Both the position numbers and the translations under genes were made by a program. A stretch of DNA of 64,000 nt from contig JAFCMP010000521.1 in NCBI GenBank assembly GCA_017506865.1, positions 1-64,000 of the forward strand. The letters are read 5' to 3'. This stretch comes from Tribonema minus (taxonomy: Eukaryota > Sar > Xanthophyceae > Tribonematales > Tribonemataceae). Below, piece after piece: positions 1-64,000 of this stretch. How positions within the stretch are numbered: the first letter of the stretch is position 1; every line of letters begins with the position of its first letter. A model generated the notes under the pieces. That model searched no databases, had not been told where the DNA came from, and saw nothing but the letters and a program-made list of their open reading frames with translations.

Positions 1-3000
1 GCTCGCCGCACGGTTGTGCCGATGCCACAACTAAAACGCATACTTCACAGTAGTTCATACACTTTCAAGTACAAACAGCAGGTTGACTTTGAGGCGCACA
101 CTTCTGGTATGGATCGCTCTCCAGGGTTAGTTGAGCGCTCAAGAATGCCTTCAGCCATTAAGTGCAGCCCAAAGTGCAATGTGTGACGCACCTGTACTGG
201 GTGTCCATGTCGTGCAGCTGCGCAGCAGAGGCAGACAGCATGACAACGCACAGCGAGATAACGCTCGTTATCAACGGCGGCAGTGCGGACGGGGATGCAG
301 CGCGCAGCGGCACGCGGATGCGCAGTGTGGCGGCATGCATCATCACCTGCGCGCACGTGTGCGGTACGCATAGGCCATAGGGGCAGGCAGGTTTGCACAG
401 GTGCGGTGGCACGCGGACGCGCAGCATGCTGCGGCATCCGCGCTACGCGCGTGCGGTATGCATGGGCCATGGGCAAGTAGGCATATATGGCGGTCCACGT
501 GGGCGCGCAGAACAGGTGTGACGCGGACAGCGCGCCGGCTGCAAATCATTTCAGTTCCCAGCGGGTACATACTTGCAGGCCAGCCCCTCGTACCAACCCT
601 GGGGCTGCCTTGACCTGCCTCGAGGACCCGACAAGGCAAGAGGCAGAACAATCAGGACCTATGCGCGGCAGTGCGGCAGTGCCTTCTCGCGGCATGCACG
701 TGCATTCTGGGGCACAGAAAGGGTCGTGGAGACTCCAGACACAGCAGATGTCCATCACTAACGCCTGCCCTCGCCTCCACTACACGCTCAGAGATACGCA
801 CAGACACCCAAGCCACGGCTAGACGACTGCCGCCTCATGTTGAGGTTTACACACAGAGCGACCGCAGCGGCGGCGGTGGTGGACAAGTGTGCCCCGCGCA
901 GTGGCGCGAGGATGCACAGCGCGGCGGCATGCGGCGGCGTCCGCGCCGTACGGAATGCATGGGCCATGTGGTACGAGGTATGTATGGCGGGCCACGTGAG
1001 CGCGCAGAATGCCGGCGACACTGACAGCGTGCCGGTCGCAATCGTTTCAGTTCCACTCCGCACTTGCAGGCCGAACCCCAGCCCTGGCTCTAGGTCTGAC
1101 CCAACGCTGGCGCTGGCCTGACAACACACAATGCAGGACAAAAACGATAGCGCCGCAGCTGTGGCCTCTTGCAACATTTGCGTGCGTTCTGAGGCACATA
1201 CAAGGTCCATGGAAAACTCTGGACACTGCAGAACTCCATCACCAGCGCCTGCCCCCGCCTCAACTAGCACGCTCAGAGACGCGCACAGACGGCCAAGCCA
1301 CGGCTAGCCAACCGACCGCCGACTAGCCCCCCATTTCTGAAGTTCAAGTTGAGGTACACACAGGGAGGCAAGTCTAAAGGTGACGCGCTCCCTCACCATG
1401 CGCCGCGTCTTCACCAGGAACGGCACGCCCAGCGTGTACCTCGACGAGCACGGCAGGCACGAACTACAAGTTGAGGTACACATAGAGCGGCGACTTCAAA
1501 GGCGACGCTGCCTCACCATGCGCCGCGTCTTGACCAGGAACGGCACGCCCAGCGCGTACCACGATGAGCACGGCAGGCAGGCGCCGATGATGGACGAGCG
1601 CACGCCTGCAAACAGCCCCGCCCAGTGTCCGTCCTGCGCAAGGGAAACAAGGGGGTTAGAACTGATTTATTCATTTACTTACATGCGTACAAATTGAATC
1701 TCCTTGTTGATGGAGAAAGGTAGGGTTCGAGGCGCGGTGGACGAGCGCATGGGGGCGAAATGTTCAACCCAGTGTTCTGTTTGTGAAGGGAAATCCAAGG
1801 CAATATTTCTGTCATCTCACTTCTCAATACTTCGCTCTGAAGTATTGAAGGGATGACAAAGGTAGGATCCGGAGCGCAGCGCAGACTGCTCCACCCGAAC
1901 GCTGCTGCTCGGCGCAAATGCTTCGGGTCGCTCAGACGCGCTTGGCACCGCTCAGACGAAGCATACGTGTGAAGCGCATAGGAACAGTACACAGGAACAG
2001 CGGCGCGACTGCGAACCTGCGCAATCGATAACAGAGAGGCAAGCACCACACTGAGAGTGGTAGGCAGGTACGCACATTGCCACACCCCCGTCGCGTGCGG
2101 CATCTTGACCCACGGCGCAGGGCAACATGGGTGCGCAGGGGCAGAAAAAAAAAACTTCTGCCGCCATGTCTACTGTTCACGCTTTCGAAAGCACTTGACA
2201 CAACATGCCCAGAGCGCCAGCACGCGCTGCTGAACCCTGTTGCCGAGCGCGCGCCACGAAGCACGCTCTCTCTCCGTGTAGGTAGCCCAAAGTAGGCAGG
2301 CGGGATCATTTCACGCGCGCGCTGCTCCACTCTGTCCCTGCGTGCAGCGCCCTACGAACCGTTGCAGCGCGCATCCCTGCCTTTGAGTACAAGGTATGTC
2401 AATGTCACAGAGTAGTTAGACATGTATGCCACAATACACCCTTGAGAGACGTACGCGTCACTCACCCCCGCCGCGCGTACCGTCGCGTAGCGCGCGCACG
2501 CCTCCGACTTAGATACATGATAGCATGTGACAGTCTGTAGGTACATCATAACCCTGAGAGACCGTGCGCGCCACTCACCCCCGCCGCCGTGCGCAGCGCC
2601 GCGCGCACCGTCGCGTAGCGCGCGCCCGCCTCCGTGATCATGCGCGTCGCCAGCAGGTCAAACGGGTGCAGCGCGACCGCCCACACGGCGCGGCTCAGCA
2701 CGCCCTCGTACGCGTGCACCGCCATCTCGGGGTCGAGCGCGCGCGCGCTGCGGTCCTGCGTCAAGCGCAACAGCAAACGGCGACGCTCCACGCGGTTAAA
2801 CTTCAAGGCACACGTTGTACTACTGCACACAAGAAGGAGTATATACGGAGCACACGGCGCGGCCCAGCACGCCCTCGTATGCGTGCACCGCCATCTCCGG
2901 GTCCAGCGCGAGCGCGCTACGGTCGTGCGTGCGCGCGAGCGCAACAGCAAACGGCGACACTCCACCAGTTGAACTTCTAGTCACGTGTTGTACTACTACA

Positions 3001-3883
3001 TAAGCACAAGAAGGACAAGAAGGACTATACATGCGGCGGCGCGGCTCAGCACGCCCTCGTACGCGTGCACGGCCATCTCCGCGCGCGCGCTGCGGTCCTG
3101 CGCAGGCGATCATGAACAACGGCGCTCTCCTGTGTTATACATGTGCTTCGAAGTGTACACATAGTGATTGCGCATGTATGCACATCAAGCCGGGGCATGT
3201 ATACAGCCCACGTGGTGCAGCTCAGCACGCCCTAGTACGCAGCACCGCTGCAGCAGTGAATGCCGGCAGCGGCGGCACCGGCGGCGCTGGGTCGCCAGAG
3301 CAACAGCGTGTGCGGGTCAGCTGCGCAGGAGCAGTACTGTATGGCGAGCGATACGATGCACAGAGCGGTATGTACAGGTATCAGCAGTAGGGATGCCTAC
3401 ATGCCTGTATGACGAGGCGCGCGGTCAAGCGGTACGTATAGGTGCTAAGAAGGCAGTAGGCATACCTACGTACCTTTATGACGAGGCGCGCGGTCAGCCG
3501 CTGCGTGGTCTTCCAGTAGTAGTCGCTGTACAGCCGCCGATTGCGCCGCAGGTACCGCAGGATGCCGCCTGCAGGCGCGGCGGCGATGCACTTCAACTCA
3601 TGCACTTCGACACAAAAGCAGGTGCAGCGGGGCAACAACGAACTGTTGCCTCAAACGAGCACCCCATCTCACCATTCAATCACTCATTACTAATTCAGTC
3701 GCTTATTTGATCATTGCTTCGTACAATAACCGCTGCGCATACGCATGGGCCGCGCACACGGCTGGTGTTGAGCACTGACGTCCTGACCGACAATCACTTC
3801 ACGTGGACGTCTTCACGACCCCCCATCACTTTTGACCTGGCGCTCGCAAGCACCGTCCCTCTGGAGCGATGCGTCTACCCCAG

Positions 3884-3914
<31 letters not shown>

Positions 3915-6900
3915 TGGGGGGGTGCGGCCGCGTGACCCTTGTGCCCGCCAGCGCATACATAAATGCAGTGACATGCATATAGTCAACGCCCCGCTGATGC
4001 GCATCTCGACGGCTCTCTGCATCCACAATCTGCCGCAAGCCCCGCCCTCGCGCGTTGCGCTGGCGTGCACGGCATGCATTCAGTCAGCTACATCTGCCCG
4101 ACGACCAGGTCCCCTCATGCGGCGACTCTGGGCGTCAACCTGTGCAGGGGGGCACTGCCTTGTCAGATTACCACGTCCTGCAGTCCTTCCTCATGCTGGC
4201 AGCGACGCGCGCTGCTGCAGACTGTTTATCTGCCCCATAGTTCAACTGCAGCCGATCGTAAGCGCAGACCGGCACTGTCGATGGCCGGCGCGTCCGAGCG
4301 CTTACGGTTATGGTCAGGGTTAGGCCCCTGCCCGCATTTACGCACCTGACCGAATCCACACATTATCACGCCTGACTGGATGCATTCGTCAGGTTCCGCA
4401 TTCATTCACGGTCCGCTCACCTGCGCAGAGGGGCACCGCCCCCTCACCCCCCCCCCCCCCCCCCCCCCCCCGTCCCGCATGACAACGGCGTAAACACGCC
4501 TGAACCATATTCATTCATGACGTGCAGCGTTCAATTCTCGACCCGCTCACTGGGTGCCGCCCCCCCTGAACACGCGCCCCCCGTCCCGCACGCCGGCAGG
4601 CGTGAACGCGCCTGAACCGAATTCATTCATGATATGCCGCGTTTAAATTACAAATCCGCTCACCTGCGCAGATCGGCGCCGCCCCGCGGAACAGCCCCGC
4701 CCACCCCTCCTCGCGCGCGATCGCGGCGCGAACACGCCTGAACCGAATTCATTCACGATCTGCCATTCATTCACAGTCGGCGTTCATTCATGATTCGCTC
4801 ACCCGCGCAGATCGGCGCCGCCCCGCGGAACAGCCCCGCCCACCCCTCCTCGCGCGCGATCGCGGCAAACGCGACGCGGTACCCCTGGAACGGCCACAGT
4901 TCCGGCAGCCGCCCGCGCGCCGCCACGGCCGACACCTTCACCGTCCAGAACGGCAGGACCTGCGCCACGCGCAGTCGACAACAACAAGCGGCAGCGCTCA
5001 GCTCTCGGTTGGCGGCGCGGGGCAGCAGCAGCAGCCCCCGGCGCGCCGTGGCGCGCACTCTGGGCAGGCGTGTGCACGGTTCTGAGGCGGCTACGGCAGC
5101 GCATGCCGTGTGGGGAAAAGGGGGGGGGGGGGCAACGGCCCTGCCGTCGGAGCGGTGCTGTGCTGGCGGCGCTGCAGTGCTCAGCACTGGTGTCGGAGTG
5201 CTGCTGCACAGGCGCTGCAGCAACGCCCAGCCAGGCGTCGGAGCCACGCACCGCAGCCACCGCTGCAGCGCTGCGCACTGGCATCGATGCTGCGCAGGCG
5301 CCACTGCAGCGCTCAGCGCGAGCGCACATCGCAGCAGCCCCCACGCAGAGGCGCGCTGCGACCACAAGGCAGACGCGGTCTGCGCACACCGCCACGCGGT
5401 CAACGGCGCATGTGTCCAGGGCACGCGGCTAGAAGGAAGCGCGTGAGCGGCCATGCAGGCGAGCTGCTGGACGCAAGCAGTTAGCCGCGCGGTGGTGCGT
5501 TGCGACGCAGCAGCAGAGCTCGGCAGGCAGCGACGCGTCAGCGATGTGTCGCTGCTGCAGGCCCGCTAAGGAAGCAGTCGCGGCGGGCATCACATACATG
5601 TGCGCGCCGCAGCAGGTACCGCATGTATGCACGCAGCCGCACCAGGTGCCGCACGCAGCGCTGCAGAGGCCACTCTCCGAGGTGCTCGGTGCGGAGAGTA
5701 ATGCAAGAAACGGCAGCCAGTCTCCTACGTGCACTGCGCGAAGAGCAGCGCGGCGCACCGCTACTTAGATCGCTGAGGTACCGCACATGTACGCATGCAG
5801 CCGCTGCAGGTGCCACTTGCGGCGCTGCTGCACTAGCTACCCTCCTGAAATGTGCATGATGCGGACAGCAGCGTAACGTACCGCAAGGTCGCTGAGCACG
5901 CTGGTCAGCACCACGCGCACCACCTCCCGCAGCCCCGACTCCGTGGACTCCAGCACCTCCGCATCCGTCTGGCGCGCCGCGCATGGGGAGGGGGGGGAGG
6001 GGAAGGGAGGGGGGTTGACGTATACGCCAGCTGCAAGAAGGTGCTGGGTCGCGCAGGAACCAGACTTTGTGAGCCTTGTTTTGGGCTGTTGCAGATTGTG
6101 ACAAGTGAGCTCCAGCACCTCCGCGTCCGTCTGGCGCGCAGCGCATGGGGGCAGGGGGGGAGGGGGGGGGGGGGGACAGGACGCAGCAGTTGATGAGCTG
6201 AGTGGTCGCGCAGGGACCAGATTTTGTGCGCAAAGTAATGGGTCGTTGACATTGTGACGTAGGTATGTGCGTCTGGCGAGCCGCATGCAGGGGGGGAAGG
6301 GGGGGGCTATACGCCAGCCTCAACAAGGTGAACTGGGCCGGTGAGCGTCGCAGCTTCAAGTAATATTTGTCACCAGTGAGGAAGGGTGGGCGGGTGGGCA
6401 TGCGGTTGCGACACACCGAACTGCTTGTGTAGAGAACGTGTAGAGAGCTTGTGCACAGAGCGACATGCCGCACCCTGGGGTACTGTTCGCCGGATCTGCT
6501 TCATGACAAACTGCACTCCGAGGAACTGTGATGACGACGCACGCGGGCGGCTGCGTGCGCACAGTCCGGTCAATGATGTCCGGCAGCGCAGATGTATGTA
6601 CGTGTCGGGGCGGGCGGTCTGCGATGGGTGCTCACAGACAAGTGATGACAAAAGCCGAGGTCCCGTCGGTGCAAACAGTGGAGAGGCACGCATCTGATGG
6701 CGCTACGGACATTGGCTGCAGCGTCAATGGCAATCGGCTTCGACTGCGCAACAAATGAAACCCAGCGGCGATGCAGCGCACGCCCGCGCTGTTGCAGGAC
6801 AAAGAGTGGCTGGTACATGGGCTCCACAAAGCGTCGCTTCGGCAGTGCTCAGATCATGGGTACTGCGGCAGCGCTCAGCAAGTGCGTGACGGCACGCGCG

Positions 6901-8871
6901 CCAGCGCATACGTACGTACCTTACCTGCCCCGTCTCCGCTGCGGCAGTGCGCGAGTCATGGTTACTGCGGCAACGCTCAGCAAGTGCGTGACGGCACGCG
7001 CACCAGTGCATACCTACTTGCATACCTTATCTGGCCCGTCTCCGTCTACGTCCGCCGTGTCCGCGGCGCCCGCCGCGACCTGCCAGGCGCGGAAAAGCAG
7101 CAGAAGAGCGCATTACGTGCTGCATTCAGGCGGTGGTCTGATCATTGCTACACAGAGAGATGGCCATTGGCAAAGCGCGGCACCCACCGCGACCTGTGCC
7201 AGGTGCGATAATGCGGTGAAAGAGTGCGTGACGCTCTGCTGCATTCAGGCAGCGGTGGACTGATCGCTGCTACACACACAGAGATAGAGGTTGGCAAAGC
7301 CGGCTGTGAGCAGCTGTAGCCCTTGGCAGCACAGGCGCTTGCGTAGCCGCGGCGCTCTCTGCGCCCGTAGCAGAACCTGCAGCTCGTAGCTACCCGTGGT
7401 GATGCGCTGTGAGGCTAGTGATGCATGCGTGTGCCCGTGAGCTCGATGCTGTAACATCACATGAATCACACCGCTCGAAGCGGATAAGCATGCCCACTTC
7501 ATGGCTTGATTGTGGCCAGATTGAAATGTGGTCACGCATGGGCATCGTGTCTGTGACCTCATACCTTGATGGTCAGTACGTCTTTTCACGGCTGCGTGCT
7601 AGTGAGCGAGCACCGTCGTGGCGGTCGCGCAGTGTTGGGGCATATGGCAGTCATATGCACATTGCCGTTTGTACGCTCGACGGTTACGGCAGTTGCATGC
7701 GCCGGTGGACAGACTGCAACACATTCATGTCTGGCAGCACACGACTGGCGTCGGTCTTCTGTCACTGGTGACCTTGATGTCTGCCTCGAGCGGTGTGGAG
7801 CAACACGCTTAGTGACAACAGCTCACGACGTTGCATCAAAAAGGAAGGGGGGGGCTCCCGCATCAGCATCAGGGGGCTAGACGCTGTGTTGCCGTGGCTG
7901 CTGCATGCTTATGCGTCATGCACCACAGCATCATGCATTTATGCCGCCAACAACGCATGCGTCATTGCTGCCATGATTTTGATTGTCATTAACAGCACAA
8001 CCCTGCAGTGCACGAAACAGTTTCTACACTGACCCCTCGTGCCTGCTCGCAGTCAGAGATAAAATGTGCCAGAGGTGAACTGTTATTCAGAGTCAGAGGC
8101 ATCACTCACCCCCATTCGCGCCCCCCCCAGCGCCCTCAAGTCCTCCCTGCTGATAGAGCTCCATACGCTCCATGCTTTCCTGCGCCAGTCGGGAGAGCAT
8201 TGTGCACAGGAAAAGAGAGACATTAATTTACGCAGGTGCACACTGTGAGTCAGGCACTGCCGCAGCACTGCCAACGTACAGCCATGGTCATGCAAAAGTG
8301 AAGAAGACAGGCTTGCCAGCAACCGCCAGTTCCGATCATCGATCAAAATTGATGTTGCAAGGGCATACTTGAAGTTGCTTCCCACACAGCAAAGAAGCCA
8401 AGCAGAGCACAACCTTGTCCATCTTAATATGACAAGTGCTCAGCGCAACAGAAGTCCTAGCCATGAGTTTGCCTGCCAACACCTTACCTGCCCTTGTCCT
8501 CCTCTTTGAGAACTTGTCGTATAGCTTCCAGCAGAGCACTCAACGGAGGCCTGGGGCTAGCCTGCGAGTTCCACACGCATAGTCAAGAAGAGCACATTTG
8601 GGGTCAAAATTTGGATCATCGCAAGAGGCCTGCTGCAGCAGCATGGGCAAACGTCATGAGATGGTTGGCGTCAAAGGCAACTTGATGTTGATCGCTTGGC
8701 AGCTGTTTTTGACGAGCACACGTCCACTTGACAAGCGACCGAGCAGCCTGTGTGCCTGATGATCTATGGTCATCAATTCACACTCACCTCTTCGTAGGCC
8801 TGGAAGGCGTCGTACAGCAAAATAATGTCCTCACTGATTCTGTCGTACGCGGAGTTGACCAAAGCTTCCAT
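1..8871 (-). CDS. SLC25-type mitochondrial carrier protein with long N-terminal extension (partial, runs off left edge)
   Basis: Twelve exons were read: 8871-8788, 8561-8488, 8179-8110, 7406-7278, 7079-7026, 6836-6636, 5968-5882, 4959-4803, 3568-3474, 2755-2579, 1633-1517, 346-192. They keep phase throughout (466 codons plus 2 nt); the C-terminus lies left of 192 or outside the window. The start is an ATG in ACACCATGG context. Residues 1-204 match nothing I recognise and include acidic and helical stretches. From about residue 205 a mitochondrial-carrier fold appears: helices ending in carrier-like prolines at LPFWTVK (~235), HPFDLLATRM (~347, closest to the P-x-[DE]-x-x-[KR] signature) and VPFLVKTRRM (~406). 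Two matrix-helix motifs follow, AREEGWAGLFRG and DGHWAGLFAG. Two of three signatures lack the acidic residue, as in divergent carriers such as MTCH or SLC25A46, so the substrate cannot be named. Probable site is a mitochondrial (or plastid) membrane. Weakest calls: exon 6836-6636 (acceptor GAAG) and the 7278 donor. Confidence 0.72.
192..1330. repeat. Echoes of the last visible carrier exon and a diverged ~490 bp direct duplication
   Basis: The acceptor edge of exon 346-192 recurs at about 401-480 and 890-975, recognisable by the shared block ending in ATGCATGGGCCATG. A longer block is also duplicated in tandem: roughly 490-830 matches 985-1320, including the shared end CAAGCCACGGCTAG and an internal match around 540-560 versus 1040-1056. 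The copies are clearly diverged, so the duplication is not recent. Confidence 0.65.
1385..1470 (-). repeat. Echo of carrier exon 1633-1517 (3' edge plus donor)
   Basis: A second copy of the exon end lies just downstream in the intron. In the coding frame it still reads LGVPFLVKTRRM followed by a GTGAGG donor, like the exon itself. The substitutions do not destroy the reading frame or the donor. Confidence 0.8.
2461..3440 (-). repeat. Echo set around carrier exons 2755-2579 and 3568-3474
   Basis: The 5' edge of exon 2755-2579 recurs at about 2846-2960 and 3030-3105, keeping LDPEMAVHAYEGVL in one copy. Its 3' edge and donor recur at about 2461-2510. The 3' edge of exon 3568-3474 recurs at about 3395-3440 (RLTARLVI). 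All copies lie in introns and point the same way as the gene. Confidence 0.75.
3888..3921. repeat. Poly-G run upstream of a carrier acceptor
   Basis: More than 30 G with one interruption on plus, a C-run in the sense of the minus-strand carrier gene. It lies in the intron before exon 3568-3474. Confidence 0.9.
4449..4735 (-). repeat. Echo of carrier exon 4959-4803 end with downstream G-tract
   Basis: About 4663-4735 repeats the last ~60 nt of the exon and its donor. A run of more than 20 C on the plus strand (4449-4471) is a G-run on the coding strand, downstream of the donor. Confidence 0.7.
6110..7230 (-). repeat. Echoes of carrier exons 5968-5882, 6836-6636 and 7079-7026
   Basis: The acceptor edge of exon 5968-5882 recurs at about 6117-6150 and 6264-6290, each beside a plus-strand G-run (C-run in the sense). 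The edges of exon 7079-7026 recur at about 6940-6960 (end plus GTAAGG donor) and 7186-7210 (start). A ~70 bp block holding GCGCTCAGCAAGTGCGTGAC is repeated at about 6868-6905 and 6970-7010. Confidence 0.65.
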
Positions 8872-27061: not shown

Positions 27062-27095
<34 letters not shown>

Positions 27096-49400: not shown

Positions 49401-52400
49401 GAGCAGCCGAAGGAGTTGAACTTCTACTCCGTCTCCTCCGACGGCCGCGTTGCCAACTGGATCATGAGCAAGAACGAGCTCAAGATGGAGCCGGTCATGC
49501 AGCTCAAGCTCGTCGGCGGGGCGCGGGAGGAGCCGGAGGTGCGTCACCCGTTGTCCTTTCTTGTCACCAATTGAGGACTGCAAGTTGAAGTAATGCAGGT
49601 CATTGGTGGTACGCTTTGTCCTGCCTTATCAACCGTTGGACTGCAAGTTGAAGTTGTGCAGGTCGTCGGCGGGGCGCGGGAGGAGCCGGGGCTGCGCCAC
49701 ACGCTTACCTTCTTATTTGTGGTGTGAAACTGCAAGTTGAAGTTGTGCACCTAATCGTGGCGGTGGGGCACGACAGGCACCGGAGGGACATCACCAGCTT
49801 AGGAACTGCAAGCTGACCTTGAACTTCAGCAGGCGCTGCGAGCACCTGTACATTATCGGCACAGGGGAGGGGCAGTCCTGCTCCCCCCCCCCCCTCCCCA
49901 ATCTCGAGAGTTCGAACCTCTACATACCCCGCATGCATGTGCTCTTGCAGACGAGCCTGGCTGCCTTCCCGTCTTCAGCTGCTGGTTCAAGTTGAACCAG
50001 CACTCCAATCTCATCAACGTGCCCCCAGACCGTCACCGCACGCCGCCTTTGCGCCTGCTGCTTTGGTGTCAACCTGCGCTTTCCAACGCAAACCACATGC
50101 CTTTGTAACCTTCGAACGTCACTGCCCCCCCCCCCCCGTCTCCTTTTTGAGGCAGCATGAAATTCCAAAAGCAATAGCATGCTCCACTCTTTACAGAACA
50201 GTCAATCATCGTCATTGCAAGGGCTGAAAATCAAATCCCCCTCCTTCCCCCCCCCCATTTGAGGCAGCACAAAATCAATAAAGAAGTAGAGTGCGCCACA
50301 ATTCACAGAACAGATAAAACCTGTCAATGCGAGGGCTGAACCCCCCCCCCCCCTCTCCCTCTCACACACACGCACAGACGAGCCTCAACGGCCTCGTGGG
50401 CGGCTGCTGCTTCGACTTCAACCCGCACTTTCCGATCGCAAACCTCGAGCCTTTATAACCTTGGAACATCACCGCGCTCCTTCCCCCCCCCACACACATA
50501 CGCGCGCGCGCAGACGAGCCTCAACGGCCTCGCGGGCGGCTGCTGCTTCGACTTCAACCGCCACGCGGAGCACCTGTTCATCGTCGGCACGGAGGAGGGG
50601 CGCGTGCACAAGTGCAGCAAGGCGTACTCCGGCCAGTACCTGCAGACGTACGAGGGGCACAACATGGCGGTCTACGCGCTGCGCTGGAACCCGTTCCACC
50701 CGCGCGTGTTCCTGTCGTGCAGCGCGGACTGGTGAGTGATTGACTCGTTGACTCATGACTTGTGAGTGCGTGGGTGAGTCCGCGACGCGCTGCGCTGGAA
50801 CCCGTTTCGCCCAAGCGCGTTCCTGTCGTGCAGCGCGGACTGGTGAGTGATTCACTTGAAGCATGACTCTTGAGTGTGCGGGCGAGTCATCTACGCGTTG
50901 CGCTGGAACCCGTGTTTCACACATGCGTTCTGTCGTGCAGCGCGGATTGGTGAGTTTTATGACTCGGGGGATGACTCTTTGACTCGCGAGGGCATATATG
51001 GCCGCCTGTGTGCTGCGGTAGAAGGTGCGCGCGTACTCGAACCCCGTGCGCTGCAGTGGCACTGAGAGTGGTGAGAGGGCATGCCCGCACCTTTGCTGGC
51101 CAGCATTCTCCCGGAGCCCACGGTTGAGTGTGAGCGGTGTTGCTGCTGTGCAGCGTGGAAGACTGGCTGGTGGGTACTCCTCTGAACGCGCTCGACCGTG
51201 CGCGATCGCCGACCGTTGTCGCTGCCCACCGCGTGCGTGCGCAGGACCGTCAAGCTCTGGGACTACGCGCTGCCGCAGCCCCATCTATCCTCTGGCAGCG
51301 CAGACAAACGCCGCTGTGTTTGCTTTTATGACAGCTGCTCTCAATCCATCTGAATCGCGACCGTGCACGCGCGCTGCCGCCGCCTCTTCTTTGTACCATG
51401 CGTACGCAGGACGGTCAAGCTCTGGGACCACGCGCTGCCGCAGCCCGTCATGTCCTTCGACCTCGGCAACGCGGTCGGCGACGTGTGCTGGTCGCCGTAC
51501 TCAGCGACCGTCTTTGCCGCCGTCACCAGCGACGGCAAGGTGCACGTCTTCGACCTCGCGCAGAACAAGCACGAGCCCATCTGCGAGCAGAAGGTGAGCG
51601 CTGCTGCTGCTGCTGCCGGTGCTGCTGCCGCTGCCACTGCTATGGCAGTGTCGCCGGTACTGCGCAGGCGCGGAGTGCACGTCTTCGACCTCGCGCAGAA
51701 CGAGTACGAGCCCAGCAGGAGTGTGCGCCGGGCACTGCTGCTGCCGCCGCCGCTGCTGCTGTGGCAGTGCTCGTCGGGTACTGCGCGGATGCGGAGCGCG
51801 CGTCCTCGATGTCGTCGCGTAAAACAAGTATGAGCCCTCTTGCGAGCAGGAGTGAGAGCCGGGCGCTGCTGGTGCTGCTGCTGCTGCGGTGCCAGAATGG
51901 CATGCGTGGGGACTGAGTCGACGAGCGCCAACGTGATCACCTTGCGAGCTGTCTGTCGGCATGCGACCGCGTAGCGCCGCGGTGGCGCGTGTTGCTGCTG
52001 CGAACACCGAAGAGTGCTGCGTGCTGAGCGTTGCTGCACGTAGCTCAGCGTCGCGAGCCGATGAGCACGAGCCAGCAGCGCTGGATTGCGCCCGCGCTGC
52101 AAGCCCCCTTCTTTTAAAATGCAGTGCGTTAAAGGCTTTTTTTTTACCGGAGGTGGCGCACCGCATACACCTGCGGCAGACAGATGCCCCGTATTCGTAT
52201 GGCATAAAGCCATGCGGCGGGCATCGTGTATGGGGTGATGGTACTGAGCGGACGAGCGGGGCGGCTGATGCGTCGTGGTCGCAATAATAGCAGAAGTTCA
52301 ACTTGAAGTTGAATATTGACTGTTGTGACCGGCAACGGCGAGTGGCAGCGCGTCCCCCCCATACGCTTTCAGGCTGGTGCTGTTCCACCATGCGTTTGCG

Positions 52401-54195: not shown

Positions 54196-57100
54196 CTAGC
54201 GCGCAGCACCGCCCTTGGCGCCGCCGCCGCCTTCCGAATCGAGCTTCTTTGCGAGCGCCACGTAGTCCACGGCGCCCCCCCTGCGCCGCTTCCGCGCCCC
54301 CCCCGTCTCCCCGCTGCCGCCCCCCTCCTCAGCATCGGCGGGGGCGGGCAGCACGCCGTCGCCGCCTTCCGCTGCCGCTGCTGCCGCCGCCGCATCGCGC
54401 TCCGCCGTGAGACGCGCTGCCGCGGCGAGGCGCGCGGCCTCGCGGTGCGCGCGCTCCTGCTCCATGGCGGCCATCTGCAGCGGCGGCAGCAGCAGCGCGC
54501 AGCGCATCAGCACAGAGTCTTGCGTGCCCAGGCGTTCTGAACGCGTCCCTGCACGAGTGGCCGTGCAACACTGCTCGGTGCCTGTGCGAGCTGCGTAAAG
54601 GGACGGGAAGCTTGACGCAGCGGCGCAGCGGCTCTAAGCTGCGCAACGCGATTACGCTCCGTCCTGCTCCACAACAGCCGCCACCTGAGGCGCAGCGCGG
54701 TACCGGCGGCGCGGCGCAGCAGCGGCGCGGAGCGCTGCCTTACAATGTGGCAGCGAGCCGCGCAGCTCTTGTCGTGGTAGCAGCGAACACACTCGTCACC
54801 ACACCGACAAAAACCCTCGCGTCACGGATGGCGTGTTCAAGCGCTGGTCGACCTAAGGCCAGACAAAAGCGGACACGGCAGAAGCACGCAGAAGCCGGGC
54901 GCAGACAAGCAGCAGCGCTCCGCAGCCGCGCGTGCAGCAGCGCTTGCCTGATTCAGCTGCCAGGCACGCCAGCGCCGATACATCCTCCCGTATCGCATCA
55001 ATCGACCACCCTGCCAGCATTTCCGCCCCCGCCACTGCGAGAGCCGTGTCGCTGCGAAACTCTCGCGCTGCGCACCAGAGACGCATCGATCACCCTGACA
55101 GCGCTGCCGCCCCCCCTGTTCTCGCGAGAGCCGTGTCGCTGCAAAGCTCTCACTACGCATCCATCACCCTGACAGCTCTTCCGCCCCCCCTACTGCGAGA
55201 GCCGTACCGCCGCGCAGCACTTGCGCTACGCGCCAGAGACCGCGCGTCCGCGGCGGGCGCCGCCGCGGCCGCGCGCGCGCCCCCCCCCGCGCTCACCCTC
55301 TCCGCCTGCTTGGCTCTCAGACCACCGTGACACCCTGACAACTCTTCCCCCCCCCCCCCACCACGAGAGCCGTGTCGCCGCGAAGCTCCCGCTGCGCTAA
55401 CTACGTACGCACCAGACTCCGCGCGTCCGCGGCAGCCGCCGTCGCGGCCGCGCGCGCCCCCCGGTCTCACCCTCTCGGCCTGCTTGGCTCTCGGACCACC
55501 GTGACGCCCTCACGCACTGCCCTGACAGCCTCTTCCACGCCCCCCCCCCTATCGCAAGCGCCGTGTCACTACACTCACTAAGCACCAGAGACCGCGCGTC
55601 CGCGGCGGCCGCCGCCGCGGCCGCGCGCGCGCCCCCCCCGGCGCTCACCCTCTCCGCCTGCTTGGCGCGCCGGCGCCGCTCCTTCTCCGCGAGCGCCGCC
55701 GCCTCAAAGTCCGCCTCCCAGGCGGCGTCGCGCCGCGACCACGGCGCGCGCGACGCGCAGCCCTCGCGCAGCGCGCGCACGTGGCCCGCGACGCTGCGTC
55801 CGAAGGCGCTCACGGGGCCGCCCTGTATGCGGTAGCCGCCCTCGAGGACGGACACGACGCGCCCGTCGCAGCAGCGGTTGGCGACCTGCGCGCGGCGCGG
55901 CGCGGCGCCGCGGCGGCGGCAGCGGCGGAGGAGGGCCGTGTGAGCAACCAATGTGTAAGCTCATAATAGGCAAAATTGCTCACGAGGCCGCCCTGGATGC
56001 GGTAGCCGCCCTCGAAGACGGAGACTACGCGCCCTTCGCAGCAGCGGTTGGCCACCTGCGCGCGGCGCCGCGGCGGCGGCGGCGGCAGCGGGAAGGGCGG
56101 GCGGTGTGAGCGACCGATGTGGCATTGTAGGATCGGCGAACCGCATGGAGCGGCGACGCGTGGTTGGTGCTGCTGCAGGATTTCGAGTTCAAAGTTGAAG
56201 TTCACTCCACACAAGCGCGCACGTGACAGGGATGCACAAGCCCAGCTTGCGCGCAGGCGTGTTGCGTGTGTGTCATACGTAACTGCACCAGCTGAGCCGT
56301 GACCCGCTCGTAGTCAACTTGATACCACAACCCCAGTTTGAGTCCTCAACTCTTGCTATCGATCGATGTCGTCGAGCGCACTCTCGAAGTGCCGTCAATA
56401 CATACCTGCACCAGCTGAGCCGCGACCCACTCGTAGTCAACTTGATGCACCACAACTTCAATTTCAATCCTCAACTCTTGCTGTCGATCGATGTCATTAA
56501 GCACACTCTTGAAGTACCAACATGCATGTACATACCTGCACCAGCTGAGCCGTGACCCACTCGTAGTCCTCGTCCAGCAGGCCGATGTAGCCAAAGTTGA
56601 TGACGTCCTTGCGGTGCGCGTCAAAGCCCGCGCTGATGAGGATGATGTCGGGGTTGAACTCCACCAGCGCAGGCAGCACCTCCTTCCTGCACAGCCCATC
56701 GCATCGCGCACGGTCCGCGCCAGAGTTAGTGTGCAGGGGCGATGGTTGGGGTGCGTGGGCAGGGTAGGTAAGGGTATGCGCGGGTATGGATAGCAGCACC
56801 TCCTTCCTGCGCAGCGCGCCGCACCGGCCACGGTCCACACGTCAGGACCGGTGCGCAGGGTTTCATGATCAGGGTGCGTGGGGGCAAAGAAAGCATGGGT
56901 ATACGGGGTAGGGTTAGCGCAAGGGTTTGTGGCGTTGCGCGCTCTGCGCTTAGCGCGGCGGGTCCCGGCCTGCCCGCAAGTGTCGCGATCTGCACGCGAC
57001 TGCATGCTTGCGGTTCCCATGTAGTTCCATTTCGTGCCATTGGCGGTTGGTTCCGCACATGCCGCCTTGGCCACAGAAAAAGGCGCCATACGCATCCTGC

Positions 57101-60100
57101 CGACTGCGGCAGCGGGCTGCGCGTCGGCGCGCCGCCCGCTCGACCGGGCGGCAGCAGATAGCCCTAGTCCTGACCCAGGCACGCATGCCTACCGTATGGC
57201 ATCGCATGCAGGGGCAGCACGCTCCAGCACCTCTGATTGTGACGACATAACGTCGCACCACACGCCGTGCCGCGCCGTGGCCACGCCTGTCGCCACTACG
57301 GGTATGTATGGATTTCACAGGATGCCAACTGTAGGTATTGCGCCGCTGCAGCCGGCTGCGCCCCGGTAGCACACCACAAGGGGCATGCATACATTCATAG
57401 CACTATACATACCTGTGCGCGTCGCGCCACTGCAGCCGGCTGCGCCCCACAGCGTGTCGTGGGGCTGCCGCAGCACAACACTGCATAGGGGTATGTATAC
57501 ATAACATAGCACTATACATACCTGTACGCATTGCGCCACTGCAGCCGGCTGCGCCCCGGCGTGTCGTGCGGCTGCGGCAACGGCAGGCCGACGTCCAGTA
57601 TCATCGGGCACGGGCGCTCGAGCGCTGCTGCCGCTGCCGCTGCTGCCGCCGGCGGCGGCTGCGCGCGCGGCGGTGATTTCGGCTCCACGTCCATCGCGGA
57701 GTCATCTGCGGCGGTGGCCGCGGCGTCCGCTTCTGCGCGGCGCAGCGGATGACACAGGGCGCAGCGTTCAACATCGTTCAACGTCACGAGCTGGTTGAGA
57801 ACAAAGCGGGCGCGCCATGGCGGCTGTGCTGCGTGTGCGCAGCAGCGAAGCGCAGAGCGCGCTGCAGCATTGCTCAGCAGCACTGCTGGCGATGTCTCGG
57901 TACTTGCAACCACGCTCCCGCGCCGACGGCAGCACTCTCGAGCTTCTGCGCTGACAAATGCGCAGCACTCACGAGCTCCTGCGCTGACAAACGCGCAGGT
58001 AGCTACTGTCCGATGGGATCGCCACCAGGTGGCAGACTCATCCCGACCAAAGTGCTACATTGGCGCCAGGCAAGGCGGCCGCCGGCGACGCTGCCGCCGG
58101 CGCCGCAGTTGGCACCCCCGATATTGAGCAGATCAGGGGTAGACTACATAGGGTTCATATCAAGTTCTAGGGTGAGGGGGCGCGCACCTGGCTCTGCGAC
58201 AGGGGGGGCGGCGGACGCGGCGGCCTCCGGCGACAGCGCTGTCGGCACCGCGGCCATTATCACGTAGGTTAGGGGTGCACTGAACTGAGACCAAGAATTG
58301 AGGTGTAAAAGAGCGCGTACCCGGCTGGCTCAGAGGCAGCAGCGGCGGCGGCAGACACAGCGGCGGCCACTGGTGCCGGCGCCGCCGGCACCGCCGCCGA
58401 TATCACTTGGAGTGAGCGGGGTGTATTGAAATAGATCGAAAAACCACATTGAGAACGCGCGCACCTGGCGCAGCAGCAGCAGCGGCGGCCACCGGCGACG
58501 GCGCCGCAGCACCGCGGCCGGCACCTCCAGTATCACCTCGAGCCGCGCCGTGGGGCCGCTGCCGGCGTAGAACCACCCCCCTGCGACCCCTCAAACAGCT
58601 ACATTTCGGTGAAGTGTTGAGCACCAGCGCGCGCGCACCTGGCTCCACGGCAGCAGCAGCAGCAGCGGCGGCCACCGGCGACGGCGCCGCCGGCACCGCG
58701 GCGGGCACCTCCGGGATCGCCTCGGGGCGCGCCGTCGGGCCGCTGCCGGGGTAGAACCACCCCCCCTGCAGGCGCTCGTACATCGGCTCCTTCTTGCCGT
58801 AGCCGTGCACGCTGACAAAGAGGCAGTGCGCGGCGTCGTCCTCCGCGAGCCACGGCGCGAAGCGCGTGCGGTGCAGCGTGCCCACGCAGAAGGGCGTTTC
58901 GACGGTGGCCGTCTCCTCGTGCGGCGCGAGGCCGCGCACGATCTCCTCCGTGCCGTTGCCGTGCTGCGCGCGCGCGGGGCGGCGTGGTGCTGCATCTGTC
59001 ACAGCTGCCTATCATGGATGTAGCAGCGACTGCAAGGTTTCGACACAGATGTGATATTGAAGTACGCCGGGGTGCAGGGGGGGGGTCAGCGCTGTCTCAG
59101 TGCTCAGCACGGGGGCGGGGGGCAGGGGAGGGGGGGGGTGCAGATGGCGCGGATGCAAGCAGTGTCCGTGGCCGCGAGCGGCGGGCAAAGCGTTGGCGCG
59201 TCGCAGACCAGATGCTTTCACTGCGTCATTTTTGCGCCCGCCTCCGCGGCAACTTGAAGTTGGGGTGAGAGTTCGTCCTCATCGCCCTCACCTAAACCCT
59301 AACCCCGCGTTGCCCTAGGAGGACGAGCGCTGCTGTCAGCCTGACGACGGCGTCTACTGATGATTAGCACACAGGTGCATCCATGTAGCGAGAGCAGCCC
59401 AGCACTGAGCACTGAACACGGCGACTCACGTGTACGTCGAAGTCCACAATGGCCACCTGCGCAGCGCGAGAGGGCAACAGCCGAGGGAGGCGCGTGCTGT
59501 GAGGCGAAGCCCGGCAACACTCAAAGCGCGCTTTCTTCAAGCAGCAATGCAGGCATGCGTCAGCGGGAATGCGGCGCAGTTGGCGACGACAGTTGCGGCT
59601 GTGATGTCACAGACCGCAGTCTGTGCAGCCTGGCACATGCAGCAAAGTTCATTAGTGAAATTGCACCAGCAACAGAGGGCTGCTGCAGTGCACTGGCAAC
59701 ATAATTGACCACGATTCGAACCTGCGTTCGTCAGACAGTGCCTCATTCAGATACACATGTGCTGTCTGCAGCACCATATGCGATAAAGTTCAACAGTATG
59801 GCTGCACCAGATTCCATAAATGCTGCATGGCTGCAGTGCATTGCCGAAACACAATTGACCACAATCCGTGCCCGCGTTCATCACAAGAGTGCTTCAAATG
59901 TGCGGCCTGGTAAGGTGCATCTTGCACTGCATGTGCCTGATGACGACTTTGTTTACCTTGCATGAAGTGCATTGCGAGCTGGATTGCCTTGTGAACCATA
60001 GAGAATGGATATGCAGTATCTCTCAAGTACACAAAATCTGTTCCATATACTCCATGGTGCAGATGATGCCAGGGAGCTGCAGCGCAAGCCAGCACGAAGT

Positions 60101-61584
60101 GAAGCTCATCGCAGCATGCGTCTTGGCTCCCTTGTGACTGCACTGTGTACTGCTTGTGTGCTGTCTGTACTGTAGGTTATTGATGTACTGTATGATGTAC
60201 TGTCAATATCTTGGAGATGCCGCCGGGGACCGCGGTGCTTGTGCCGCACATACAAAGTCCCACTTGAAACAGAGAGCATTATTCGCCCACAAGTCCACTT
60301 TTTTTGTGTACTGGGTTCGCACTGTACTGTGTACCGCACGTTGGAGATGCCGCCGGGGCCGCGGTGCATGTGTCGCACGTGCAAAGTCCGCCTTGAAGTT
60401 TAGCAGAGAGCATTATCTGCGCACAACTCCTCTTTTTGTGTACTGTGTTCTCGCAATGTATTTGTGTATTGCACCTTGGAGATGCCGCCGGGGCCGCGGT
60501 GCATGTGCCACGCGCACAAGTACCGTATTTTGTACTGTGTACTGTTTATGTACTGTATGGTGTACTGTTGATGAGCTGTTCAGTACCTTGGAGATGCCGT
60601 CGGGGCCGCGATGCATGTGCCGCGCGTACGCCGCGCCGATGGCCACGTTGTTGAGCAGGCAGAAGCCGTGGCTGCCCTCGCGGTCGTTGGGGCATGTCAC
60701 CAGCCCCCTGTTCAACATTGGTCAAATTTGAAGTTGAGGTTGGTGGGGGGTTTGAGATCACCAAGCGGGTGTGTTGAAAGCAGTGCGGGGCAGCAAATGA
60801 GAGACATGAAGAAGAAATGCAGGGATGCGAATGCACCCAGCTGCTTGCAGTCGCGGGGAACACCACCTCCACTCATGGTAGGTGTCAGTTACAATGTAGG
60901 TGAAGCTACAGGCAACACTGCCAGCCTTCACACCTGCAGCGCGGCACCGCCCTCGGCGGCGCACGCGCAGCAATTGGCGGCACGCATGGGCAACCATGCC
61001 GCACACCGCAAGGCTCAGCGACGGTATTCGAGGAACAGTACAAAGGTGCTGCAACTATGCGGACACTGCCGTCAGGAGAAGCGCGCTGGGCTCGCATTAG
61101 CCGCTGGCTCCTCGGCGGCATCCGCCGTGACAGACCTGTGAGCGTGGCTTGCGGATACGGTTAGGGTTACTCTAACCCTAACCCTAAGATCATTGACACG
61201 GACATGTACTTCAAGATCATTTCAGACGCGCTCCGCGTCCGTCGCGGCGCACCGCGCGCCGCCTGCAACTAGCCACGGACACACGACACTGGCACCAGCA
61301 CGACAATGGCACCGGCACGGCGGCGCAGGGCTGAACGTTTCACACTTGCCTGGGCCCCGCGTGGTGCCCGGGGGGCCGCACGGCGCAGAAGGCGTTGCGG
61401 TTCCGCCGCCGCGCACCGCTGCCGCCGCCGCCGCAGACCCTGTCTATCGCCGAGCACACGCTGCCGGCGGCGCGCAGCGCGGCCTCGTAGCTGGCGCGGC
61501 TGACCGCGGTGTCGCCGTCGAGGTGCTTGATGGCCGTGGGGGCGTCGGGGATGCTGGCGCACAGCTGCTGCAGCCTGGGGCAGT

Positions 61585-61619
<35 letters not shown>

Positions 61620-63679
61620 TCAGGCTTTGAGGAAATGTCAGCGCGCAGCGGGGAGGGGGGGGGGGTCAGGTGTTGCGGCACACAGCTGGGGGGGGAATTG
61701 GCAGTTGAGCAAGGGCACAATTGGCATGGAGCCCTGCAGCTATCGAGCGCTGCAGTGTGAGCGGGCATGGTTTTTTTCGCGGGCGTCGATCGTGGTGTGG
61801 TGCCGCCTGAGCGACTGACGACGGAAGGAGCACTGGCGTACATGCGCGCACACGCGCGCCAGCCCGCCAGCACTCGCGCGCATCCGTGCGGGCCGCCCCT
61901 TGCTGATAAAGACGCCGGCCGGCGCAATGGTGGAAAGGAGAACGCGAGGCGGGACCGTGCGAAGAACTGCGCGCCGCCGCTCGCATGTGGCGCGCCGTAC
62001 CCAGCCCTGAACCTAACCCTGCCCTAAACCCTATGTGCTGAGCGCTGACCTGCTGATGCAGCCGTACTCGTGCACGCGCAGGACGTCCGCGAGGGCCGCC
62101 CTTCGCTCACAACACGCCAGCCAGCCCTAACCCTATTTAACCCCCTTTCTTCAATGCGCTGAGAACCGACCTGACGTAGCCGTACTCGTGCGCCTAGCCC
62201 TAGCCCTATCCCTAAACCCAGTGCGCTGATCGCTGACCTGCTGACGTAGCCGTACTCGTGCACGCGCAGGACGTCCGCGAGGGCCGCGCGCGGCGGGTCC
62301 GCGTCCCACTCCACGCCCGCAAACTCCGCCGCGCTCAGCACGCCCGTGTCCTCGTCGTAGATCACCTGCGTGCGCATGCACAAGGAAAGCTTGAGTGTCA
62401 GCGCCGCGCCGCCGCAGGGTGGCGGGCCGGCGCACGCGTGACAAGGCTAGCTGTTGCAGCGCCGCTTTTGCTACTCCATGTTGAAGTTTGAAGTTGAAGT
62501 TTCCTCTCAGGGCAACATATGCTCATTGCGGAGAGGGCGCGCAGAGGCGGAGGTACGGGGCTGCAGATGTCGAAGAGGTGGCAAGTCACGAGGGCTGCAA
62601 CTGCAGCCTTTCAGTACAAGTAAGCAAAGGTTGTCTAGTGGCCAATGAGGTTGAATTCTGCACCTGCTGGCCTTCTTCGAACTTTGAATTCTGCCATAGT
62701 GCGGACACACCACCGCAAGCACTAACGACGGCCCATGTCGCCATCGCTCACAATGCAGTACACAGCAGTACATGTGTGTACTGTACACCGACTGTGCGCC
62801 AAAGCAGTGACGACGCGCAGGACACGGGCAGCAGCGCGCGCCGCTGCTGCCTTCGGGCATCGATTATCGCGCTGGCGGCACGCGGCCACGCAGCGAGCGG
62901 TTGCGCGTCGCCTCCGTCCGCCACGGGCCCTCAACACTCACGCCAAGCCCTCACGATCAGCGATCACTTCGCGCCGCACTGCGTCGCATCGCGCCGTGCC
63001 GGGCCAGCCACGCCGCGCAGCAGCAGCAGCAGCAGCGGCGCTCGCCGCGCCTCACCTCCAGGCGCCTCACGTTCTCCGGCGGCGGCTCCGGCCCGGAGCG
63101 GCGGATCGGCGGGCATGAGTAGTGCGCCTCGCACAGCGCGTGCTTCATCACAAGCGTCGGCAGCTCCTCCCCCCCCTCCCCCTCCCCTTCCGCCTCCGCC
63201 GCCGCCGCCCCCCCCAGCGCCTCCGCCAGGTCTGGCGGCACTGCGCGCGCGCCGCCGCCGCGCCGCCGCCGCGCCGCCGCCGCCGCCGCGGGCGTCGCGC
63301 CGCGCTTGTTGGCGGCGGCGGCGGCGTCCGGCGCCGCGGCCAGCAGCGCGCGCGCCGCGCCCCAGCGTGCGTGCGCGGCGGCGGCGTGCAGCGGCGTGTC
63401 GCCGAGCGCGCTGCGCAGTGCGGGCGACGCGCCCGCGGCGAGCAGCGCGGCGACGCACGCGGCGGCGTCGTCGACGGCGGCGGCGGCGGCGAGGTGCAGC
63501 GCGCGCAGGCCCTGGCGCTCGCGCGCGTCGAGGAAGTCGCGCAGCGGCGGCGGCGGCGCGGCTGCGGCGGCAGCGGTGGCAGCGCTCGGAGAGGCGGCGG
63601 CGCCGTCTGCGCCGCCGGACTTTGACACTGCGGCGGGTATGGTGGCAGCAGGTGCGCCGGGCGATGGATCAGCTTCCAC
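54196..63679 (-). CDS. Ankyrin-repeat class II-like histone deacetylase
   Basis: Ten exons in phase: 63679-63056, 62365-62238, 61574-61350, 60707-60587, 59456-59430, 58963-58639, 57732-57522, 56686-56536, 55885-55649, 54474-54196. They give 775 codons ending in TAG. Residues ~50-150 hold about two ankyrin repeats (GLRALHLAAAAAVDDAAACV; GDTPLHAAAAHARWGAARAL). The deacetylase domain follows from about 180, with every catalytic element: RPPGHH (317-322), GFCLLNNVAIGA, DFDVHHGNGTEE (zinc ligands D373 and H375), SAGFDAH (zinc ligand D576) and EGGYRIQGG (Y622). LFVSVHGYG and FYPGSG mark the class II-like group with an extended loop. The C-terminus is charged, with a KRRR segment that could be a nuclear signal. 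It should remove acetyl groups from histones or other proteins. Intron 3 uses a GC donor (GCAAGT). Exon 5 is only 27 nt. Confidence 0.92.
55250..56090 (-). repeat. Echoes of both edges of HDAC exon 55885-55649
   Basis: The donor-side edge (CTTGGC and CGGAGAGGGTGAGC blocks in the sense, with a G-run after it) recurs at about 55265-55320 and 55425-55500. The acceptor-side half of the exon recurs at about 55980-56065 and still reads GRVVSVFEGGYRIQGG in frame, including the catalytic Tyr motif. Confidence 0.85.
56283..57455 (-). repeat. Echoes of HDAC exons 7 and 8
   Basis: The end of exon 56686-56536 (EWVTAQLVQ plus donor) recurs at about 56403-56440 and 56283-56323. Its acceptor edge recurs at about 56788-56815. 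The end of exon 57732-57522 recurs at about 57412-57475 and 57330-57372, with the CACTGCAGCCGGCTGCGCCC block. Confidence 0.85.
58180..58600 (-). repeat. Three echoes of the HDAC exon 58963-58639 end
   Basis: Ala-rich coding ends with donors recur at about 58187-58258, 58318-58402 and 58464-58600. The nearest copy extends far enough to repeat the PGSGP-coding block (CGTGGGGCCGCTGCCGGCGT). Confidence 0.85.
59289..59308. repeat. Short telomere-like tract
   Basis: CCTAAACCCTAACCCC on plus, TTAGGG-sense for the HDAC gene, in intron 5. Confidence 0.75.
60205..60520 (-). repeat. Three tandem echoes of the HDAC exon 60707-60587 end
   Basis: The exon end (GGAGATGCCGCCGGGGCCGC on plus) recurs at about 60213, 60345 and 60477, each with a CTTG- or GTTG-type boundary. 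All are followed, in the coding sense, by a spacer with TGTACTGTGTAC-like sequence. The period is about 130 bp. Confidence 0.93.
61159..61188. repeat. Telomere-like inverted pair
   Basis: GGTTAGGGTTACTCTAACCCTAACC places TTAGGG and CCCTAA units head to head across a few bases. This lies in an HDAC intron, downstream (coding sense) of the GC donor at 61350. Confidence 0.85.
61587..61618 (-). repeat. Poly-C tract (sense) before the HDAC exon 3 acceptor
   Basis: A run of about 32 G on the plus strand is a C-run in the coding sense, ending 13 nt before the exon at 61574. A second run lies at 61658-61668. Confidence 0.9.
62005..62237 (-). repeat. HDAC exon 2 donor echoes with TTAGGG tracts
   Basis: The exon 62365-62238 end (GCCGTACTCGTGCACGCGCA on plus) recurs at about 62048-62100 and, shorter, 62166-62192. 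Each donor (true or copied) is followed in the coding sense by TTAGGG-like sequence at 62191-62220, 62123-62137 and 62005-62033. Confidence 0.9.
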
Positions 63680-64000
63680 GGGTTGTGTATAGTCAGCAGC
63701 ATGAGCGGTGAATGCACCAAGCCACTGCCTGCCGCTGCTGGCAGAGCGCTGTCACCGCCGGCGTGAGCATCGGTCACTGACGCCGCGAAGGGGCGGCAGC
63801 AGCCCCAGGCTTCAACTCCGGGTTGAAACAAAAGTAACGGCAAGGTGCCCCAGTACACACGTTGCGCACAGAATGTGATCCACCATGGCGCACGCAACAC
63901 GCCGGGAGCCGCACATCTGGAGCGTGATGACACCTTACGGCATGAACGGCACAGTACGCAGGGCGCGCACATGAAATGGCGGTTCACTCATGCGGCGAAG
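63680..64000. other. Upstream of HDAC; no gene seen
   Basis: The last 321 bp contain open frames but nothing recognisable. The HDAC promoter probably lies here. Confidence 0.5.

Follow-up and report, generated by a model that had tools for sequence, protein, structure and literature searches.

How introns gain length is the question raised by a 64,000-nucleotide stretch of Tribonema minus DNA (contig JAFCMP010000521.1, positions 1 to 64,000; the window), in which introns of functionally unrelated genes contain partial copies of the exon edges beside them. Intron lengthening is usually attributed to transposons. An earlier note on this DNA had named the copies exon echoes and proposed that introns are built, probably genome-wide, by repeated duplication of exon-intron junctions. 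We studied four hand-modelled genes of this single window, encoding a dynein intermediate chain (exons E0 to E6), a histone deacetylase (HDAC, H1 to H8), a mitochondrial carrier (C1 to C4) and a bromodomain protein (B1 and B2); several of the exons were modelled by eye. Splice sites were set from reading frame, phase and GT/GC...AG borders, which gave 17 complete introns of 466-1234 bp each. The analysis confirmed that the copying of exon edges in neighbouring introns is real, and in most cases the copies are head-to-tail tandem duplications of edge-straddling segments. Recurrent short tandem duplication, tolerated because splicing hides it, is the likely explanation of the edge echoes.

Copies of exon edges in neighbouring introns

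We aligned the terminal 50 exonic bp of each edge, or 27 bp in the case of the short exon H4, with the adjoining intron and regarded an edge as significant when it scored above all 200 dinucleotide shuffles and above all 16 other modelled introns. This was the case for 19 of the 34 edges, comprising 13 of 17 donors and 6 of 17 acceptors. At least one significant edge was present in 14 of the 17 introns, as the earlier note had maintained for most introns, and none in H2-H3, H4-H5 and C1-C2. The shuffled-intron control that the note had proposed, run here on the 17 modelled introns, thus left 19 edges above every shuffle, and copies occur on the donor or the acceptor side, as it had described. 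No edge was significant in the reverse-complement test (0/34), in agreement with the claim that copies keep gene orientation. Among segments from the middle of exons, a single one was significant (1/22), and it lay within a poly-G stretch.

A looser search, to which the intron flank and the outer edges of the genes were added, returned one to five aligned copies, the number claimed before, at 27 of 41 edges. These comprised 16 of 20 donors, 10 of 20 acceptors (HDAC H6 weakly) and one stop codon. The 55 copies so counted, whose gene orientation is fixed by the design of the search, may include some single copies aligned twice, e.g., those at offsets 365 and 381 from the B1 acceptor. The echoes occur in unrelated genes on both strands, the dynein and bromodomain genes lying on the plus strand and the HDAC and carrier genes on the minus strand. 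The pattern described for six genes (five plus the carrier) was present in the modelled genes, which were four, not six.

The proposal that a G- or C-rich tract flanks the copies did not hold generally: G-runs of 8 or more bases were present in 2 of the 17 introns and C-runs of this length in 7, and such tracts were rejected as a general driver. An introner-like element shared between introns was likewise rejected, as the 19 significant edges each matched their own intron better than all 16 others.

When the whole window was compared with itself, about 67 matching pairs were obtained at E<=1e-6, and all but three were same-strand pairs with offsets of 69-521 bp. Two of the exceptions were distant matches on the same strand, located in CG-rich repeats, and the third was a dispersed inverted repeat. 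The four gene regions contained no inverted pairs. The dispersed repeat (7633-7838 and 27924-28131, 79% identity over 209 bp) was the sole inverted match at this threshold and is possibly a mobile element; two further inverted pairs, counted at E<=1e-3, lie within 12700-19700.

Tandem geometry and decay of the copies

If a segment straddling an exon edge is duplicated head to tail, its intron half must recur at a predictable place. The predicted intron half was found in 20 of 27 cases (global alignment, score above all 200 letter shuffles). The nearest copies were offset by 69-184 bp, with a median of 139 bp and one weak outlier at 448 bp, a range overlapping, though not identical to, the periods of about 90-220 bp suggested before. 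The exon parts of the copies were 14-127 bp long. The gene regions, 21.4 kb in all, held 30 arrays, of which 26 overlapped an exon end (in one case the stop-codon end) and 4 did not; pairs with both copies mostly exonic were absent (0/76, in 3379 bp of modelled exon). The arrays show what defines short tandem duplications, namely adjacent copies of a whole unit in the same orientation. Those touching exons span 6415 of the 14026 bp of the 17 introns; of the total intron length, 40% (5670 bp) is due to the extra copies, in keeping with the large role in intron length that had been claimed. Exon-edge copying shows that piecemeal lengthening of introns is possible without damage to the protein.

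A single array departs from the pattern of copied exon-intron junctions. It lies across the stop codon of the bromodomain gene and the adjoining 3' flank (32029-32212) and shows that splicing is not required for such duplication. It fits a filter acting on the protein, as a duplication across the coding end is harmless and needs no splicing to hide it.

The course of events that we consider likely would begin with stretches of about 70-190 bp being duplicated head to tail, repeatedly. Where the segment straddles an exon edge, one copy would stay in the coding exon and the other would fall wholly in the intron; splicing at the site joined to the full exon would leave the protein unchanged, and the event would be near-neutral and retained. 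Duplications confined to an exon would mostly disrupt the protein and disappear. The intronic echo would subsequently drift and might be reduplicated, giving arrays with as many as about five copies, by which the intron would grow.

The intron-birth model of Rogers, in which an AGGT-containing exon segment is tandemly duplicated, shares with these arrays the presence of tandemly duplicated exon sequence beside introns. It is nevertheless a highly improbable explanation here: the units hold existing intron flank and splice site (20/27), the echoes adjoin the edge that they copy instead of presenting the downstream-exon start and upstream-exon end around a new intron, and the introns reach beyond the arrays.

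The copies have diverged in a manner that distinguishes their two halves. With gaps ignored, 227 of 2486 sites differed in the exon parts and 545 of 3125 in the intron parts, giving an intron-to-exon divergence ratio (Jukes-Cantor) of 2.04 (bootstrap over edges, 1.67-2.66). A ratio of about 2:1 is expected if selection holds the exon but leaves the echo and the two intron halves free to drift. The changes in the exon parts were spread over the codon positions (0.078, 0.081 and 0.115), which indicates that most arose in the echo, with a modest third-position excess. The echoes thus decay neutrally, and constraint acts on the exon alone. Exon-part identity ranged from 69 to 100% across copies, consistent with duplications spread over a long time. 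The description of the copies as tandem and decaying was upheld, but copies farther from the edge were not reliably less identical (Spearman −0.19, P 0.21, n=44).

This divergence pattern also led us to reject an artefact of assembly or sequencing, in which collapsed or chimeric long reads would have produced the copies. Homopolymer runs of up to 34 bases and a GC content of up to 72% are hard for assembly, but copies differing by 0-31% with a twofold excess in the intron parts are not expected from read errors or misjoins, and an artefact is extremely unlikely.

The splice dinucleotide was said to be carried by the copies, and it was intact in 38 of the 45 that cover the site and lost in the rest. 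The neutral expectation was 37.2, so the echo dinucleotides were neither preserved nor purged, and selection was evident neither for nor against echo splice sites. This count includes only copies aligned over the site, and gapped alignment can rescue sites; the site of the offset-128 copy at E1 appears damaged when read without gaps. Use of an intact echo site would cause a frameshift or stop in 36 of 38 cases and would be tolerable in 2, so that the exon-contiguous site should be the productive one. Retention of the dinucleotide could be taken to mean that selection maintains the echoes because they act as decoy splice sites or regulate splicing. Such a selected function is very unlikely, however, given that retention equals the neutral expectation, that the twofold ratio reveals no sign of constraint on the echo, and that nearly all intact echo sites would disrupt the protein.

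Edge preference and the origin of the duplications

Random placement of duplications was modelled with protein-breaking events removed, and the expected share of edge arrays was 0.24-0.53, depending on the unit length and on the intron length used (present or pre-duplication). For the smaller intron pool of 8060 bp, the added copies had been summed by hand to 5966 bp; the computed value of 6071 bp hardly altered the expected share. The observed arrays were counted in three ways, and of the hand counts used below (20, 4 and 15) a recount reproduced 20 and 15.

Several results weigh against recurrent duplication at random positions followed by the protein filter. Random placement predicts that intron-only arrays should at least roughly match edge arrays in number, whereas 20 edge arrays versus 4 intron-only arrays were present in the 17 introns (P 1e-9 to 0.002). 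With exons masked as N and any matching pair accepted, the count was 15 versus 4 (P 5e-7 to 0.018), and with the match required on the diagonal of the edge-touching pair it was 10 versus 4 (P 0.0009, 0.043 and 0.13 for expected shares of 0.28, 0.45 and 0.53). The exon share of the unit was below uniform (mean 0.38, n=26, Kolmogorov-Smirnov P 0.004), a deviation that a simple random-breakpoint model leaves unexplained. Array density was lower outside the modelled genes (17 in 43.5 kb) than in the gene regions (30 in 21.4 kb), and duplication may therefore not be uniform. The intron half was not clear in 7 of 27 cases (E3 donor, E5 acceptor, H3 donor, H5 donor, H6 acceptor, B1 donor and C4 donor). 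The breakpoints are too decayed for microhomology to be read, and we infer the repair route. Finally, TTAGGG-like tracts, which bear on that route as described below, match chance expectation over human introns (PMC7215372).

Part of the edge excess may be due to detection. Duplications could occur everywhere, with those copying exons recognisable for longer and the edge preference only apparent. Consistent with this, the exon parts were about twice as well preserved as the intron parts, and the strictest count recovered just 14 of the 26 edge arrays from non-coding sequence alone. As a complete account, a detection effect is improbable: with exons masked, 20 of the 26 edge arrays still gave some match (6 of these on another diagonal), and even the 14 on the same diagonal outnumber the 4 intron-only arrays.

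The same excess could reflect a process targeted to junctions, in which transcription or splicing (R-loops at donors, paused polymerase, G-rich tracts) causes breaks or template switches at exon edges. The edge share exceeds random placement with exons masked too, arrays are denser inside genes than outside, and the exon share of the unit is non-uniform. Donor edges were also hit more often than acceptors, at P 0.037 for the significant edges and P 0.096 for the looser search (16/20 versus 10/20). On the other side stand the array that spans the stop codon without a splice site, the four intron-only arrays and the G- and C-runs, which are not general; furthermore, the excess falls to P 0.0026-0.018 if introns were formerly shorter, and to P 0.04-0.13 in the strictest masked count on the same assumption. 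We regard junction targeting as rather unlikely. In its fullest form, breaks coupled to transcription or splicing and repaired in a telomerase-type manner would turn the junctions of this lineage into hotspots of tandem duplication; successive junction duplications would account for most intron length, and introns would grow outward from their own exons while the spliceosome ignored the copies. This form, too, appears doubtful.

Outside the modelled genes, 7 of 17 arrays lay at one end of a coding segment predicted by a codon-usage model trained on the hand-modelled exons, compared with 2.96 under random placement (P 0.018) and 2.88 under circular shift (P 0.026). A Pfam search of ten predicted coding segments returned a single weak match (E 0.13). 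An edge excess exists, but the slow decay of exons together with formerly shorter introns could explain much of it. In terms of recurrent duplication and filtering, the excess would probably reflect introns that were shorter when the duplications took place, with an added bias toward transcribed exon edges as a possible contribution.

The source of the duplications can be proposed more tentatively. They might arise from staggered breaks or paired nicks through fill-in of the overhangs and subsequent end joining. In mammalian cells, fill-in by CST-Pol alpha at breaks with complementary 3' overhangs, followed by nonhomologous end joining, yields small tandem duplications (PMC8355091). Like the arrays of the window, these are head-to-tail and need no flanking homology, which makes the reaction a plausible source; the difference is that the demonstration used Cas9 nickases in cells of mouse and human. 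In mammals, TTAGGG-like tracts are attributed to double-strand break repair (PMC7215372). Of 16 such tracts in the window, the modelled introns, which make up 22% of its length, hold 10 (P 0.0005) and the modelled exons none; when copies and neighbours were merged, 7 of 12 lay in modelled introns (P 0.007). Separately, an octamer (AACTTCAA/TTGAAGTT) and its shifts were enriched on both strands (29 seen, 2.3 expected) and seemed, by eye only, to lie near array boundaries.

Known systems, gene models and catalogue

The closest parallel is the potato RdRp gene, in which one tandem duplication across an intron-exon boundary, according to RNA reads, produced a new spliced intron and an added exon (PMC4974935). 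There, as in the acceptor echoes, the unit takes in the 3' portion of an intron together with the 5' portion of the exon that follows, and the 26 arrays of the window that overlap exon ends likewise have units crossing an existing exon boundary, including the one at the stop-codon end. The potato case is one event in one gene, whereas in the window 27 of 41 edges in four genes were affected, with donors and one stop codon among them; moreover, the copies described here were apparently absorbed into the existing intron. The AGGT model of intron gain (Rogers 1989, Gao and Lynch 2009 and Hellsten 2011, as cited in PMC4974935) similarly involves tandem duplication within genes interacting with splice sites. 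In that model the duplicated segment is purely exonic and the intron comes to lie between the two AGGTs. It differs in that existing junctions are copied and existing introns lengthened in the window, where no new AGGT-bounded intron was seen and none of the 76 pairs had two mostly exonic copies. The distinction drawn earlier from this model was therefore borne out by the 20 of 27 cases in which existing splice sites and intron flank were copied. Introners are lineage-specific families of similar elements found in many introns (PMC9860276). They too shape introns on a large scale; each echo, in contrast, is private to its own edge, as the 19 edges scoring above 16 other introns demonstrate.

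No named description of the pattern was known to the earlier note. A limited title search of the open literature, without subscription papers or preprints, found no report of pervasive edge duplication among the titles listed; a single event of the type is in print for potato RdRp (PMC4974935). The event type is thus already known, while its prevalence, the donor-side copies and the clean signature of neutral decay were not found reported in this limited search. About 40% of the length of the 17 introns consists of recognisable copies of their own exon edges and flanks, with a built-in neutral clock. If this were true genome-wide, the growth of introns could be read and dated directly from such copies, which would also offer a natural way to test how the spliceosome ignores intact duplicate splice sites about 100 bases away.

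The GC content of the window was 54-72% in 2-kb steps, and spliced eukaryotic genes were present. Genes were sought by Pfam and PDB sequence searches of most translated frames and by inspection of reading frames; the searches covered 8-18 kb and 29-64 kb of the plus strand and 1-10 kb, 24-44 kb and 49-64 kb of the minus strand. The dynein intermediate chain gene (plus strand, about 44.8-51.6 kb modelled) had a best PDB match at E 1.8e-71, with exons E1, E3, E4, E5 and E6 covered by PDB alignments; E0 and E2 are assumed from the reading frame and the general sequence of such proteins. The HDAC gene (minus strand, 62.4-55.6 kb) matched Pfam PF00850 at 2e-13 in exon H2 and 8e-8 in H7, and a PDB entry in H2 and weakly in H3, the remaining exons being modelled by eye. 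In our own reading, the dynein chain is of the outer-arm class and the HDAC of class II type; a flagellar dynein subunit suggests that the organism is probably flagellated and swimming. The bromodomain gene (plus strand, up to 32055) matched PF00439 at 3e-7 in exon B2, and B1 was modelled by eye. The carrier gene (minus strand, 6.0-2.6 kb) is the weakest of the four models, with PF00153 at 0.0013 on exon C2, under the Pfam cut-off, and with C1, C3 and C4 modelled by eye. Pfam searches of minus 34-44 kb, plus 8-18 kb and minus 24-34 kb gave no match, nor did Rfam (gathering thresholds) and tRNA searches of the window. No related loci were found in viral contigs; the 14 genome-contig loci matched, from records titled bacteria or cyanobacteria, were not used.

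Table 1. Arrays at exon edges, exon-free tandem pairs and example TTAGGG-like tracts of the window
Feature	Position	Strand	Remarks
Dynein E0 donor (exon end 44950)	44848-45282	+	2 copies, offsets 151, 279
Dynein E1 acceptor (exon start 45972)	45725-46025	+	1 copy, exon part 54 bp at 98%
Dynein E1 donor (exon end 46335)	46298-46851	+	4 copies, offsets 128, 229, 359, 488; poly-G
Dynein E3 acceptor (exon start 48434)	47941-48485	+	4 copies
Dynein E3 donor (exon end 48620)	48570-49040	+	3 copies; TTAGGG-like tracts in units
Dynein E4 donor (exon end 49538)	49507-49749	+	1 copy, without donor dinucleotide
Dynein E5 acceptor (exon start 50514)	50051-50559	+	Offset-136 copy and intron-only similarity; offset-728 copy (about 49.8 kb) beyond span
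Dynein E5 donor (exon end 50731)	50671-50979	+	2 copies
Dynein E6 acceptor (exon start 51410)	51234-51446	+	1 copy
Dynein E6 donor (exon end 51593)	51540-51894	+	2 copies, both without intact donor dinucleotide
HDAC H1 donor (exon end 62238)	62012-62287	-	2 copies
HDAC H3 donor (exon end 60587)	60155-60629	-	3 copies
HDAC H5 donor (exon end 58639)	58074-58765	-	4 aligned copies; predicted intron half not recognisable
HDAC H6 donor (exon end 57522)	57329-57579	-	2 copies
HDAC H7 acceptor (exon start 56686)	56673-56918	-	1 copy, exon part just 14 bp
HDAC H7 donor (exon end 56536)	56275-56568	-	2 copies
HDAC H8 acceptor (exon start 55885)	55808-56121	-	1 copy
HDAC H8 donor (exon end 55649)	55001-55666	-	Copies at offsets 178, 352 and more intron units
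Carrier C1 acceptor (exon start 5968)	5948-6306	-	1 copy
Carrier C2 donor (exon end 4803)	4395-4866	-	2 copies (edge search); self-match offsets 111, 243, 382
Carrier C3 donor (exon end 3474)	3384-3496	-	1 copy, GT changed to GC
Carrier C4 acceptor (exon start 2755)	2676-3248	-	3 copies
Carrier C4 donor (exon end 2580)	2440-2634	-	1 copy, donor dinucleotide altered
Bromodomain B1 acceptor (exon start 31181)	30609-31253	+	5 aligned copies (two perhaps one); offset-828 copy beyond span
Bromodomain B1 donor (exon end 31367)	31323-31540	+	1 diverged copy
Bromodomain coding end with last codons, stop (ends 32055) and 3' flank	32029-32212	+	Tandem copy, offset 101; not a splice edge
HDAC H3-H4 intron, exon-free tandem pair	59682-59896	-	Counter-example
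Carrier C1-C2 intron, exon-free tandem pair	5170-5317	-	Counter-example
Carrier C1-C2 intron, exon-free tandem pair	5614-5828	-	Counter-example
Dynein E4-E5 intron, exon-free tandem pair	50125-50340	+	Within E5 acceptor array span; counted as counter-example
Interstitial TTAGGG-like tracts, examples	48629-48697, 47494-47520, 61156-61188, 23569-23641		

Two minor observations concern individual sites. The HDAC H2 exon seems to have a GC donor (GCAAGT) at 61350, and the H2-H3 intron carries no significant echo on either side. At 22261-22450, a long reading frame of the minus strand includes an array of 12-bp units that translate as SNVT/SNVA repeats; the array is perhaps a coding minisatellite, unlike the edge echoes.

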